DNA from: Herbiconiux daphne
Lineage (GTDB): Bacteria > Actinomycetota > Actinomycetes > Actinomycetales > Microbacteriaceae
NCBI RefSeq assembly: GCF_024979295.1
Contig: NZ_JANLCJ010000006.1
Location: forward strand, 186,001 to 250,000
DNA: 64,000 bases
Reading direction: 5' to 3'
A program made the position numbers and the translations under genes. Of this stretch, positions 21,936 through 26,852 are shown piece after piece. The stretch's first letter is position 1, and each line of letters starts with the position of its first letter. The notes beneath the pieces are model-generated. The model was not told where the DNA came from. It saw only the letters and a list, made by a program, of their open reading frames with translations, and made no database searches.

Positions 21936-24158
21936 TCACTTCTCGAGTGTCGTCCGGCGCGTCAGCCGCATCAGTCCGAAGCCCGCGAGCACCAGCAGCA
22001 CCAGTCCACCCACGAGCGGGAACGGGTTGCCACCGGTCAGCGCGAGGCTGCCCGAGTTGCCCGAGCCACCCGCCTGCGCGGCCAGCGGGGTGCTGGTCGA
22101 GCCCGACGGAACCGTGGTGCCCGGAGTCGTCGTCACGCCGGGCGTGGTCGGCTCACCGGGGTCGGTGGGGTTGGTGGGGTTGGTCGGATCGGTGGGGTTG
22201 GTCGGCGTCGTCGGGTCGGTGGGATCCGTCGGCGTCGTGGGATCGGTCGGATCGGTGGGATCCGTGGGATCGGTCGGATCCGTGGGATCCGTAGGGTCCG
22301 TAGGGTCCGTAGGGTCGGTCGGGTCGGTGGGATCGGTCGGGTCCGTCGGGCCGGTGGGATCCGTCGGAACGGTCACCGTCGATCCCCCGGTGGTGCAGTC
22401 CCCGATGACGCAGACGGCGTTGCCGCCGATCGTGATCGGAAGATCGATGCCCGGGATGATCTGGTTTCCGCCGCCGATGCTGCCGTCACCGTCGGTGACG
22501 ATCGTTCCGGTGCCCGAACCCGTCTCGGTGGTGACGGTCGAACCGTCGGTCTCCGAGTCGCCGATCACCGAGACGGCGTTGCCGCCGACGGTGACCGGGA
22601 TGCCCAGATCAGGGATGATCTGGTTTCCGCCGGCGATGCTGCCGTGACCCGTGGTGGTCGATCCGCCGTTGCCAACTGAGCCGTTGCCGGTGGTGGTGGT
22701 GACGTCGGAGTCGCTCGACGAGGAGTCGCCGATCACTGAGATGGCGTTGCCGCCGACGGTGACCGGGATGCCCAGATCGGGGATGATCTGGTTTCCGCCG
22801 GCGATGCTGCCGTGACCCGTGGTGGTCGATCCGCCGTTGCCAACTGAGCCGTTGCCGGTGGTGGTGGTGACGTCGGAGTCGCTCGACGAGGAGTCGCCGA
22901 TCACTGAGATGGCGTTGCCGCCGACGGTGACCGGGATGCCCAGATCGGGGATGATCTGGTTGCCGCCGGCGATGCTGTCGTCACCCGTGGTGGTCGATCC
23001 GCCGTTGCCACCTGAGCCGTTGCCGGTGGTGGTGACGTCGGAGTCGCTCGACGAGGAGTCGCCGATCACCGAGATGGCGTTGCCGCCGACGGTGACCGGG
23101 ATGCCCAGATCGGGGATGATCTGGTTGCCGCCGGCGATGCTGTCGCTCCCCGTGGTGGTCGATCCGCCGCCACCACCTGAGCCGTTGCCGGTGGTGGTGG
23201 CGACGTCGGAGTCGCTCGACGACGAGTCGCCGACCACCGAGATGCCGTTACCGCCGACCGTGACGGGTAGGTCGACGACGGGCGCGATCTGGTTGCCGCC
23301 GGCGACGCTGTCCTCTCCGCTGGTGCTGGAGCCGTCTCCGGCGCTGGTGCTGCCGGAGCCCGAGGTGCCGGCGCCGCCGTCGGTGGTGCTGACGTCGGAG
23401 TCGCTCGACGACGAGTCGCCGATGACCGAGATGCCGTTACCGCCGACGGTGACCGGGATGCCCAGGTCGATCGGCAGCTGGTTGCCACCGCCGACGCTGT
23501 CCTCACCCGAGGTGGTGGGGGCGGCTTCGGAGCCCGCCGCGGCGGAATCCGTGGTGGTGGAGTTGGCGGCATCCGTCGACGACGAGTCGCCGATCACCGA
23601 GACGGCATTGCCGCCGACGACCACCGGAACCGACACATCGATCGGAACCTGGTTGCCGCCGGCCACACTGTCGTCACCCGACGTGGTCGCGGGCGCAGCG
23701 GCATCGGGCGCCTCTGCGTTCGCGGCCGGAGCCGGGTCGGTCGCCGGAGCCGGGTCGGCCACCGGAGCGTCGTCGGTGATGGTGCTGGTGGCGTCGGTCG
23801 ATGTCGAGTCGCCGATCACCGAGACGGCGTTGCCGCCCACGGTGACGGGGATGTCGACATCCACGACCGCCTGATTGCCGCCGAGCAGGCTGTCGGCACC
23901 GGAGGTCGAGAGCTCGACCGGCACCGAGGCCGCCTGTTCGGTCGACGCCGACGAGTCGGAGCTGCCCGAGTCGCCGATCACCGAGACGGCGTTGCCGCTC
24001 AGGTCGATGGGCAGGTCGATCGAGACGATCGCCTGATTGCCGGCTGCTGCGCCGTCGTCACCGCTGGTCTCAGCGGCATTCGCGACGCCCGCGCCGAGAG
24101 CGCACAGGCCCCCGGTGATGAGGACTGTCCACAGCCCTCGCGAGACGAATTTATTCAT
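21936..24158 (-). CDS. Sortase-anchored chaplin-like repeat surface protein
   Basis: 740 residues from the ATG at 24158 (GGAGAG upstream). A signal peptide ends near ANAAETSG. Ten chaplin-like repeats follow, each about 45-75 residues, with the pattern SGxDSxxGGNQxxxDxxIPVTVGGNAxSVIGDS plus an acidic Ser/Thr linker. Repeats 6-8 are nearly identical, with a DNA period of 165-168 bp. Only the tenth carries the Cys pair (NAVCVIGDC) seen in chaplins. Next come a Thr-Asp-Pro tract (about residues 595-672), a sorting motif LALTGG near residue 705, a hydrophobic helix and a basic tail. I infer wall anchoring with a stalk. The related function in Streptomyces is amyloid-like hydrophobic surface coats. 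Confidence 0.85.
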   Translation of the reverse strand: MNKFVSRGLWTVLITGGLCALGAGVANAAETSGDDGAAAGNQAIVSIDLPIDLSGNAVSVIGDSGSSDSSASTEQAASVPVELSTSGADSLLGGNQAVVDVDIPVTVGGNAVSVIGDSTSTDATSTITDDAPVADPAPATDPAPAANAEAPDAAAPATTSGDDSVAGGNQVPIDVSVPVVVGGNAVSVIGDSSSTDAANSTTTDSAAAGSEAAPTTSGEDSVGGGNQLPIDLGIPVTVGGNGISVIGDSSSSDSDVSTTDGGAGTSGSGSTSAGDGSSTSGEDSVAGGNQIAPVVDLPVTVGGNGISVVGDSSSSDSDVATTTGNGSGGGGGSTTTGSDSIAGGNQIIPDLGIPVTVGGNAISVIGDSSSSDSDVTTTGNGSGGNGGSTTTGDDSIAGGNQIIPDLGIPVTVGGNAISVIGDSSSSDSDVTTTTGNGSVGNGGSTTTGHGSIAGGNQIIPDLGIPVTVGGNAISVIGDSSSSDSDVTTTTGNGSVGNGGSTTTGHGSIAGGNQIIPDLGIPVTVGGNAVSVIGDSETDGSTVTTETGSGTGTIVTDGDGSIGGGNQIIPGIDLPITIGGNAVCVIGDCTTGGSTVTVPTDPTGPTDPTDPTDPTDPTDPTDPTDPTDPTDPTDPTDPTDPTTPTDPTDPTTPTNPTDPTNPTNPTDPGEPTTPGVTTTPGTTVPSGSTSTPLAAQAGGSGNSGSLALTGGNPFPLVGGLVLLVLAGFGLMRLTRRTTLEK

Positions 24159-24266: not shown

Positions 24267-25535
24267 TCAGTCAGGAGAGGTGTCGGTGTCGTAAACAGGC
24301 GACGACGGCAGTTCGTCGTTCACCGCCCGACCCGAGAGTGTTGCGAAGGCGGACGCGAAGACCGCGCCCAGCAGAAGATCAGAAGCGACGGATGCCGCGG
24401 CGGCGGGTCCCGACGAAGCCCCACCGCTCGACGAACCCGACGTCGGCAGCGCCCCACCGCTGGCGGGGCCGAGCGGGCCCCACGCACCGCCCGGAGCCGC
24501 CGGGCGGAACGGCAGACCACCGGAGCCGGCCAGGCCGGCCAGACCCACCGCGGCGGCCGCGGCGATGCCGAGGAGTGCCGCCGATTCGGAGGCGCCCGAC
24601 CCGAAGAACGAGCCGGTCGAGATGAGGGCGGCCCCGACGACGGCCGCAGGGGCCGACGACGCAGGCGCGCTGGGGCTCGTCGGCACAGCCGGGCCGAGCG
24701 GCAGGCCGCCGGGGGAACCCACGCCCGATCCGCCAGCGGATCCCGAGCCGGGAAGGCCAGGAATGCCGGAACCCGGAAGACCGGAACCGGGAAGGCCCGG
24801 AATTCCGGGGATCCCGCCCGGCGCGCCACCGCCGGTGACGACCGGCGTCAGAGCGTCATTCGTGGCTGCAACCACGGGGGTCACGGCAGTCGCCGTGCCC
24901 TCGAGCACCGTGTCGACCGCGCTCGTGACGGGGGCGGTGATCGTGCCGACCGGCGCCGGCCCGACGATGTCGGACACCACCGGAACACCGGCCACGATTC
25001 CGTCGACCGCGTCGACGACGGGGTCGACCAGCTGCGAGACCGGTGCCGATGCGGCCAGCCCGGTGACGGCATCCGTCACGGCCGGAACAACCTCGGCCAC
25101 CTGACCGACCGGCGCCGCGACCGGCTCGGGAAGACTCTCGACGACGGGTGCGACCACCTCGTCGACCACGGGTGCGACGACCTCGTCGACGACCGGCACC
25201 GCCACGTCGCTCACGACAGGGGCGACGACCTCGTCCACGACGGGTGCGACGACTTCGTCGACGGCGGGCGTGACGACCTGCGACGTGGCGCCCGAGACGA
25301 TGTCGCCGACGCCCCCGGTGACGGCTCCGACCGTGTCGTCGAGGGAGCCGACGGTCTGCGAGACCGACTGGGTCACGCCACCGAGCAGCGATCCGACGGG
25401 GGAGTCGGCCTCGTCGGCAGAAGCAGAGGATGAGCCGAAGACGGCGCCCGCGATGATCCAGCAGGCAGCCAGGCCCGACGCGCCCAGACCGATGGCGAGC
25501 CACCGTCGGGACGGCTTTTCAATTGAACGATCCAC
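24267..25535 (-). CDS. Val/Pro-rich repeat surface or exported protein
   Basis: About 422 residues. The GTG at 25535 is chosen because AGGGGG lies eight bases upstream; a nearer GTG at 25544 would touch that site. An N-terminal hydrophobic segment (LAIGLGASGLAACWIIAGAVFG) should direct export. Repeats of VVDEVVAPV span roughly residues 90-140, followed by a Pro/Gly segment with GIPGLPGSG repeats and a C-terminal hydrophobic Ala-rich region. No domain is recognised. It lies 108 bp upstream of the chaplin-like gene on the same strand, suggesting a joint role at the cell surface. Confidence 0.65.
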   Translation of the reverse strand: MDRSIEKPSRRWLAIGLGASGLAACWIIAGAVFGSSSASADEADSPVGSLLGGVTQSVSQTVGSLDDTVGAVTGGVGDIVSGATSQVVTPAVDEVVAPVVDEVVAPVVSDVAVPVVDEVVAPVVDEVVAPVVESLPEPVAAPVGQVAEVVPAVTDAVTGLAASAPVSQLVDPVVDAVDGIVAGVPVVSDIVGPAPVGTITAPVTSAVDTVLEGTATAVTPVVAATNDALTPVVTGGGAPGGIPGIPGLPGSGLPGSGIPGLPGSGSAGGSGVGSPGGLPLGPAVPTSPSAPASSAPAAVVGAALISTGSFFGSGASESAALLGIAAAAAVGLAGLAGSGGLPFRPAAPGGAWGPLGPASGGALPTSGSSSGGASSGPAAAASVASDLLLGAVFASAFATLSGRAVNDELPSSPVYDTDTSPD

Positions 25536-25571
25536 GACAGTCACCCCCTGTGCTGGACGTTTCTTAATCCG

Positions 25572-25686: not shown

Positions 25687-26661
25687 TCAGGCGATGAGGT
25701 AGTCGTGCAGTGCTTCGTCGCGCAGCATCCCGAGCGCCCGGCGCTGAATCTGACGCGCCCGCTCGCGGCTCACGCCGAGGGCGTCGCCGATCTGGTCGAA
25801 CGACATCGGGTCTTGCCCGTCGAGGCCGAATCGCATGCACACGACGCGCGCCTCGCGGGGCGGCAGGGTGGCCAGGGCCACCTCGAGGTCGTGGTGCTGC
25901 AATGATGCGGCAGCGGCGTCGAACGGCTGCAGCTGGGTCGAGTCCTCGATCAGGTCGCCGAGCTCGGCGTCGTCGTCGCCGACGGGCGTGTGGATCGACA
26001 CCGTGTCGCGACCGTGGCGCAGCAGTTCCTGCACCTTCGCCGGCGGAAGGTCGACGGCGCTCGCGATCTCGTCGATGGTCGCCTCGCGGCCGAGCTCGAT
26101 CACGAGCCGGCGCTGCATGCGGGTGATGGAGCTGATCTTCTCCGACGTGTGCACGGGGATGCGGATGATGCGGCCGCTGTCCGCCAGCGCCCGGTTGATG
26201 GCCTGCTTGATCCACCACGACCCGTAGGTCGAGAACTTGAAGCCGGCCTGGTAGTCGAACTTCTCGACCGCACGCACGAGGCCGATGTTGCCCTCCTGGA
26301 TGAGGTCGAGGAACGGCAGCCCGCGCTCGAGGTAGCGCTTGGCGATCGAGACGACCAGACGCAGGTTGGCCTGGATGAGCTGCCGCTTGGCGGCCTGCCC
26401 GTCGCGGGCGAGCCACTGCAGCTCGCGCTGCAGGCTCGAATCCATCACCGGCTGTTCCTTGAGCTTCGCGTCGGCGAGCACGCCGACCTCGATGCGGCGG
26501 CCGAGATCGACCTCGTCCTCTGCTGTCAGCAACGCGGTCTGACCGATCTGGCGCAGGTAGTCCTTCACCGGGTCCTCTGAGGCACCGCGGATGTTCGCCA
26601 AGCGCGCCTGCGGCTCGCTCTCATCGATTTCGGTTGCTGAAGCTACAACTGTGCGTGACAT
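25687..26661 (-). CDS. Group 2 sigma-70 factor (SigB/HrdB-like)
   Basis: 324 residues with regions 1.2 ([17 protein letters not shown]), 2 ([20 protein letters not shown] and [17 protein letters not shown]), 3 ([16 protein letters not shown]) and 4.2 ([20 protein letters not shown]). The length and lack of the long region 1.1 fit a non-housekeeping primary-like sigma factor. The ATG at 26661 has GGAG six bases upstream; the ATG two codons earlier would lie directly against that site. The protein probably drives stationary-phase or stress transcription. Confidence 0.92.
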
Positions 26662-26852
26662 CTTCATCTCCGTTATTCAGTCCGTATCCCGGTTGTTCCG
26701 AAGGCTATCGCCGCACCAGGGCACCCCCCTAATGGGGGAACGGGGGGTTGACACGACCCGGCTCAAGGTGCCATGCTCTACGGCTTCGTCGCCGGATGGC
26801 GGCTGCCGCGCCTTCTAGACTGGAAGCCCCCACACGGTCGGAAGGCGCACGC
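26662..26852. promoter_or_regulatory. Divergent region between sigma factor and copper cluster
   Basis: A 191-bp region with divergent genes. It contains a G-tract inverted repeat CCCCCCTAATGGGGG (near 26725) and a TTGACA hexamer at 26748-26753 pointing toward the plus-strand gene, but no convincing -10 at 17 bases. GGAAGG precedes the plus-strand ATG. Confidence 0.4.

Follow-up and report, generated by a model that had tools for sequence, protein, structure and literature searches.

A multi-repeat chaplin-like protein of Herbiconiux daphne with a predicted sortase anchor and a conserved upstream partner gene in Microbacteriaceae

Introduction

Chaplins are known from aerial growth in Streptomyces. 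They carry two conserved Cys, which are absent in ChpE and in the second domain of ChpB. In the available part of PMC13251363 chaplins are defined by three GN motifs, 12-13 residues apart; LAXTG is the signal of class E sortase and anchors the long chaplins (PMC5148588, partial text), and ChpE, which has no Cys, forms amyloid in vitro (PMC3079736, partial text). Outside Streptomyces, CwpA and CwpB of Actinoplanes missouriensis are hydrophobic and anchored by class E sortase, as is predicted here for our protein, but in the accessible text their authors report no chaplin domains, and the host is hyphal and sporangium-forming (PMC13251363). A review mentions, in the part available, chaplin-like genes in the non-sporulating rod-coccus Arthrobacter chlorophenolicus and in others, to which our protein is likened by description alone, and suggests that an attachment role of chaplin-type proteins may predate the aerial one (PMC4255298). 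Within the accessible text of the literature searched (PMC4255298, PMC13251363, PMC5148588, PMC3079736, PMC5618241 and PMC10011130 included; subscription literature largely outside), no account of these Microbacteriaceae repeat proteins or of the partner described below was found, and the nearest published mention there is that of the Arthrobacter chlorophenolicus genes (PMC4255298).

We analysed a stretch of 64,000 nucleotides from Herbiconiux daphne, hereafter the window. Like ChpA-C of Streptomyces (PF03777), one of its proteins has a signal peptide, hydrophobic cores bounded by GN, a Pro-rich spacer and LAxTG for a class E sortase. In contrast to ChpA-C, it has ten truncated repeats instead of two full domains, lacks the third GN and has its Cys, at +4 and +9, confined to the last repeat; its host is a plant-associated rod, with no other PF03777 gene found in the genome, and the gene has a partner that was not found in 30 Streptomyces-type genomes. 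PF03777 proteins of two other groups, labelled f35 and f26 (L135, L137, L139, L140, L197), share with it the tandem chaplin-type cores, four to eight in number (in L139, eight by eye and seven by the script pattern). An LPxTG-like end is found in L135, L137 and L140, and many f35 loci have an upstream partner with a -PD tail, as in the window. Unlike the window protein, however, these multi-repeat proteins (L135, L137, L139, L140) have Cys in most repeats (VCGN, and again about 12 residues later), and the f35 partners end in DPS(F/I)(S/A)PD or EPSFAPD. The conserved upstream partner, which the first-pass annotation of this DNA had missed, is the main new point of this work.

Results

Layout of the repeat gene

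The gene is an ORF of 740 aa at 21936-24158 on the minus strand (ORF list, translation and Pfam), with the coordinates that the first-pass annotation had given it. Its ATG at 24158 is preceded by GGAGAG, with an RBS-like GGAG seen by eye, and a promoter and terminator scan found nothing. Plus-strand ORFs across the repeats were judged by inspection to be high-GC mirror frames. The translation contains everything that had been claimed for it, namely ten repeats, a Thr-Asp-Pro stalk and an LALTG end. All on the minus strand, these comprise a signal peptide that is kept in relatives (24075-24158, cleavage site predicted), the ten repeats as defined by repeat mapping and profile alignment (22395-24047), the stalk, presumably wall-spanning and built of 9-, 18- and 27-bp tandem repeats according to TRF (22119-22370), and the sorting end with LALTG, a hydrophobic helix, the basic tail RR and the stop (21936-22046; class E specificity after the available part of PMC5148588). 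The repeats start at residues 38, 92, 166, 223, 286, 342, 397, 453, 509 and 562, each with a core close to GGNQ-x12-GGNAxSVIGD (in fuller form GGNQ-x12-GGNA(I/V)SVIGDS), and are joined by linkers rich in Ser, Asp, Thr and Gly. As had been noted, Cys is limited to the last repeat (22395-22475, minus strand, by repeat mapping): the mature chain has two, both in its GNAVCVIGDC.

The mature protein is devoid of Trp and Tyr and has a pI of 4.05 and a GRAVY of -0.13, its cores ranging from 0.44 to 0.81 and its linkers from -0.20 to -0.89; reference chaplin domains, counted from their first GN, have a mean GRAVY of 0.76. Length-variable spacer surface proteins are termed 'periscope'-type. The main rival to the reading that we prefer is that this protein belongs there, its small separate units projecting from the cell or shielding it, with no self-assembly. 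We consider this unlikely, though deserving of real weight. The beads-on-a-string layout, the hydrophilic linkers, the acidic pI, the negative overall GRAVY and the recent in-frame duplication of units described below would all suit such a spacer; against it, the first repeat directly follows the signal peptide, leaving no distal N-terminal binding domain, and the cores are as hydrophobic as chaplin domains.

Relation of the repeats to chaplins

Pfam ChpA-C (PF03777) matched the repeat protein at 58.8 bits, above its cut-off of 21, in five stretches each with E <=1, whereas the NCBIfam search of the protein gave no match. A profile made from 30 Streptomyces-type chaplin domains scored it at 59.8 bits, and with the same profile none of 200 shuffled versions of the sequence behind the signal peptide exceeded 4.3 bits; the similarity is therefore not due to chance. 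The reference domains came from genomes labelled f37 and g136, which we take as Streptomyces on two grounds: their PF03777 matches score about 100 bits and cover positions 2-57, and a search with one of their chaplins found 21 plasmid records, of which 18 are from Streptomyces (with a chaplin annotation in 6 of the 8 records listed). A wrong-strand row (L133+) was in the reference profile used for the Cys positions and was left out for the 59.8-bit score and the shuffles.

Taken singly, all ten repeats align to the chaplin profile, with 5 to 18 bits each, over at most positions 3-44 of the domain, and none of the alignments extends to the third GN, which was aligned in 0 of 10. GN1 and GN2 are present, with 13 residues between them. 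Relative to the second GN, Cys occupies -1 and +17 in all 30 reference domains, against +4 and +9 in the window protein, so that neither the two conserved Cys nor the three GN motifs of a chaplin are found in these repeats. Since the alignments end at position 44 and the Cys lie at +4 and +9, the repeats are, as judged from the alignments, truncated relatives of chaplins and not full chaplin domains, and the Cys pair of the last repeat is a different one from that of chaplins. A similar pair is found in 7 of the 8 complete genes of the genus. The earlier description of the repeats as chaplin-like thus stands as to profile similarity and falls as to the third GN and the Cys pair.

The shortness of the aligned core, the low score per repeat and the wholly different repeats of some related modules could also point to convergence, that is, to low-complexity repeats rich in Gly, Asn and Val that resemble chaplins without common descent. 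We regard this as rather improbable: the summed score is far above that of the shuffles, the repeats retain PV, (V/I)G and a pair of GN motifs with 13 residues between them, alongside LAxTG anchoring, and the f35 chaplins with Cys-bearing multiple repeats share the -PD partner arrangement, which links them to the window group.

Anchor signal and sortases

The predicted sortase-anchored end of the first-pass annotation was confirmed insofar as LALTG is accompanied by a class E sortase gene in the genome, so that the absence of any sortase, which would have counted against it, was not observed. Three sortase-domain matches were found, including class E at 234 bits (cut-off 160) and class F at 177.2 bits (cut-off 166), and the class E gene lies on the same contig as the repeat gene, about 100 kb away. 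Thus LAxTG, helix, basic tail and class E sortase, as expected of a class E substrate and of a long chaplin, are all present by sequence. The class F gene (L057:14010-15913) adjoins a gene for a predicted secreted protein, and another sortase-domain match near the contig start (L057:1000-2738) lies beside a similar one; both proteins are possible substrates.

Among the 20 complete genes of L034-L055, the C-terminal motif is LAxTG in 18, LPNTG in one and neither in one; L035 has repeats but no LAxTG, despite the class E sortase of its genome. Such a sortase is found in 46 of the 47 profile-matching genomes against 141 of 150 in the family overall (135 above cut-off), and its presence is not specific, because 141 of the 150 have one. 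G121 (L193) has repeats and partner, no class E match and two other sortase-domain matches; its repeat protein has no LAxTG, and the locus is partly masked.

The Pfam score, the LAxTG end and the class E sortase would also be compatible with a true long chaplin that co-assembles with short chaplins into a hydrophobic aerial sheath. A PF03777 search of the own genome gave no match besides the repeat gene and hence no short chaplins, although divergent ones could be missed by it. Herbiconiux is described as rod-shaped in the accessible part of PMC10011130, in agreement with the non-aerial host presumed by the first-pass annotation, and an aerial sheath is therefore unlikely. Given in addition that the third GN and the chaplin Cys are absent, we give this explanation hardly any credence.

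Expansion of the repeats

The repeat units measure, in order, 162, 222, 171, 189, 168, 165, 168, 168 and 159 bp, followed by the last core. Units 6-8 are 97-99% identical in DNA, the cores of units 8 and 9 share 95% identity, and TRF reports 4.5 copies of 168 bp with 93% matches, which together mark the cores of repeats 6-9 (22554-23135, minus strand, 95-99% identical) as a recently amplified stretch; since the assembly (G000) is a draft of 889 contigs, the exact count of these near-identical units could be an assembly effect. It has 5.3 Mb and 3.09% contamination, the other genomes of the genus having 3.8-4.9 Mb, and some contigs may be foreign.

Cores 1, 2, 3, 4 and 10 are nearest to the same-numbered or last repeats of other species, and cores 6-9 are nearest to each other. 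Repeat numbers are 7, 7, 7, 7, 7, 8, 10 and 10 in the eight complete genes of the genus and 4-13 in the 20 complete genes of L034-L055, a comparison between species with one genome per species. From these comparisons the ends of the gene are judged stable while its middle expands. The recent internal expansion proposed earlier agrees with this, given the identity of units 6-8 and the different repeat numbers between species. On the other hand, ten repeats, which the first-pass annotation had treated as singular, are by the gene comparison not a new architecture in kind, because multi-repeat genes are common in relatives and in other families.

Distribution and genomic site

With Pfam, the family was detected in 22 of 99 genomes, the own one included, and in 9 of 16 of the genus; the remaining 7 of 16 have no Pfam match, so that the repeat gene is dispensable. 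At the level of the class, 97 of 394 genomes had a PF03777 match. In Microbacteriaceae, a 16-row profile covering the signal peptide and the first repeat had matches in 132 of 398 genomes, which represent 35 of 85 genera; there were at least three matches in 118 of the 398 and one or two in 14. The 47 named loci among the matches listed are mostly from Microbacterium, with Herbiconiux, Curtobacterium, Leifsonia, Frigoribacterium and others. L049, from an order-level relative, has nine repeats, of which 4-9 carry Cys elsewhere (VGC...SDC). A plasmid search with the repeat protein of the window gave no match.

In the genus, a sigma-factor gene borders the gene pair on one side and, in several members, a permease gene on the other. 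In the window the former is a sigma-70 family gene at 25687-26667 on the minus strand (Pfam, relatives' loci), which flanks the module and is not counted as a member. G006 and G014 lack both module genes, and there the two flanks lie directly next to each other. A gene reading as UvrA-like was seen at the module site in G001, G010 and G013 (L187, L189 and L188).

A conserved partner gene

Upstream of the repeat gene, separated from it by 108 nt, lies the partner gene (24267-25544, minus strand, delimited by relatives' loci and profile; start uncertain, GTG near 25544). Its product has a predicted signal peptide, a body rich in Val and Pro and a tail ending in LPSSPVYDTDTSPD. Pfam and NCBIfam searches assigned the window partner to no family; of three other members compared with Pfam, two had no match and one had a match at chance level.

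Partner conservation was examined at 59 loci, with L059-L062, L068 and L079 dropped as duplicates and L101-L104 for having no repeat ORF; L046, L049 and L050 are order-level relatives and not Microbacteriaceae. A same-strand ORF ending in PD or PG was present upstream of the repeat gene, with a gap of 67-134 nt, at 57 of the 59, the exceptions being L083 (none within the distance searched) and L100 (the match is not a start; kept in the count). The tails at the 57 loci are SPD in 45, TPD in 6, APD in 3, TPG in 2 and RPD in 1. At random positions a partner-like ORF occurred in 45 of 1180 cases, which may include some true sites. Some Microbacterium copies of the partner have Arg residues and a hydrophobic stretch ahead of the tail.

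The partner profile matched 113 of the 398 Microbacteriaceae genomes, 109 of them among the 132 with the repeat profile (Fisher p ~1e-68, ignoring shared ancestry). It matched 101 of the 118 genomes with at least three repeat matches and none of the other 17; in two non-matching genomes (G021, G023) a -PD partner is nevertheless visible at the locus (L035, L051). The four partner-only genomes have weak matches, and that of G411 (L186) is probably false, as it falls within an LAxTG ORF.

Ten loci, mostly with a strong partner but weak repeats, were read. In L177-L182 the partner precedes an LAxTG or LPxTG protein in which the signal peptide is kept (21 to 37 bits) and the repeats are unrelated (<=2.7 bits). 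As the partner stands beside other repeats in these six genomes, its function may, to judge from gene content, have nothing to do with the chaplin-like cores. The repeat types seen there include VEGGLVGD and LIDADVCxDLGLLGS. L184 has a chaplin-like match with a separate LAxTG-ended ORF, and L185 has chaplin-like repeats. In L183 (G230), a second partner-like ORF with a -TPD tail is followed by a regulator-like gene and not by a surface protein.

A counterpart of the partner in other families

Among 246 genomes of the class, the Microbacteriaceae partner profile matched 12, eight of them in the family and four at E ~6e-4 to 1e-3. A partner confined to Microbacteriaceae and near relatives could be ruled out, as this profile misses the f35 form. 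Seven f35/f26 loci were read at length: in L196, L197 and L202 the upstream ORF ends in DDPSFSPD or DEPSFAPD, and in L198-L201 no partner was seen. A three-row profile made from the former, run on genomes all chosen for PF03777, matched 26 of 39 f35 genomes, leaving 13 of 39 unmatched, but none of the 30 Streptomyces-type genomes and not the single f26 genome. All of the 20 f35 loci taken (L203-L222) have the counterpart ORF, 19 ending in DPS(F/I)SPD and one in EPSFAPD, and a chaplin-type repeat ORF then follows in 17 of 20, as defined by a loose pattern (14 of 17 once the three seeds are excluded). No long ORF ending in SPD, TPD or APD was found in the 3-kb loci of the 30 Streptomyces-type genomes. 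The L196 partner scores 16.1 bits with the Microbacteriaceae profile, and position, type of signal peptide and tail suggest that f35 and Microbacteriaceae partners are likely homologous. Our guess is that f35 is Streptosporangiaceae.

Structure predictions

AlphaFold2 modelled five repeats (12 rows) at pLDDT 38, too low for a reliable fold, and two repeats (74 rows) with strands in each core at pLDDT 70 and pTM 0.40; compared with PDB folds (Foldseek, VIA), the two-repeat model found no match. The two-repeat model agrees with beta-prone units on flexible linkers but does not prove them. A PDB sequence search gave four matches, all on the Thr/Pro stalk part and due to composition, which were rejected.

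Discussion

The reading that we lean towards, with somewhat more confidence than doubt, is that the two genes form a module for a wall-tethered, valency-variable coat that is adhesive or amyloid-prone. Signal peptide, repeats, anchor signal, sortase gene, conserved gene pair and copy-number change between species are established at the level of sequence. The repeat protein would be secreted and linked to peptidoglycan by the class E sortase at LALT|G, with the Thr-Asp-Pro stalk carrying it through the wall. Ten short, hydrophobic, truncated chaplin-like cores, presumably beta-forming, would then be displayed on acidic flexible linkers and may associate sideways, within and between chains, into a wall-tethered, adhesive and amyloid-prone layer, whose reach and valency would shift with each duplication or loss of units. 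The upstream gene would supply a second secreted protein needed alongside, most probably an assembly helper or co-subunit. The missing Cys do not exclude amyloid, since ChpE forms it without them. Several points speak against a coat: the whole protein is not hydrophobic, the five-repeat model has a low pLDDT and the two-repeat model has no PDB fold. Against the module or the coat also count L035 without LAxTG, the 17 of 118 repeat genomes without a partner match and the absence of the gene in 7 of 16 members of the genus.

A broader reading, which we hold slightly less probable than its opposite, is that a two-gene system for assembly at the wall surface is common to several actinobacterial families outside Streptomyces. 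In it the partner would be constant and the anchored repeats interchangeable, whether chaplin-like and truncated, of the chaplin type with Cys, or unrelated. The partner, with its acidic -[S/T]PD tail, would be the defining component, in a role like that of an amyloid nucleator, a rodlin or an assembly chaperone. The finding of the partner arrangement in f35 raised our estimate of this possibility.

A partner conserved in two distant families provides a defined gene pair for knock-out, and the natural series of repeat numbers, from 7 to 10 in the genus and 4 to 13 in relatives, allows a direct test of valency. A widespread chaplin relative in unicellular bacteria of plants and soil fits the suggestion, in the available part of the review, that attachment came first (PMC4255298).
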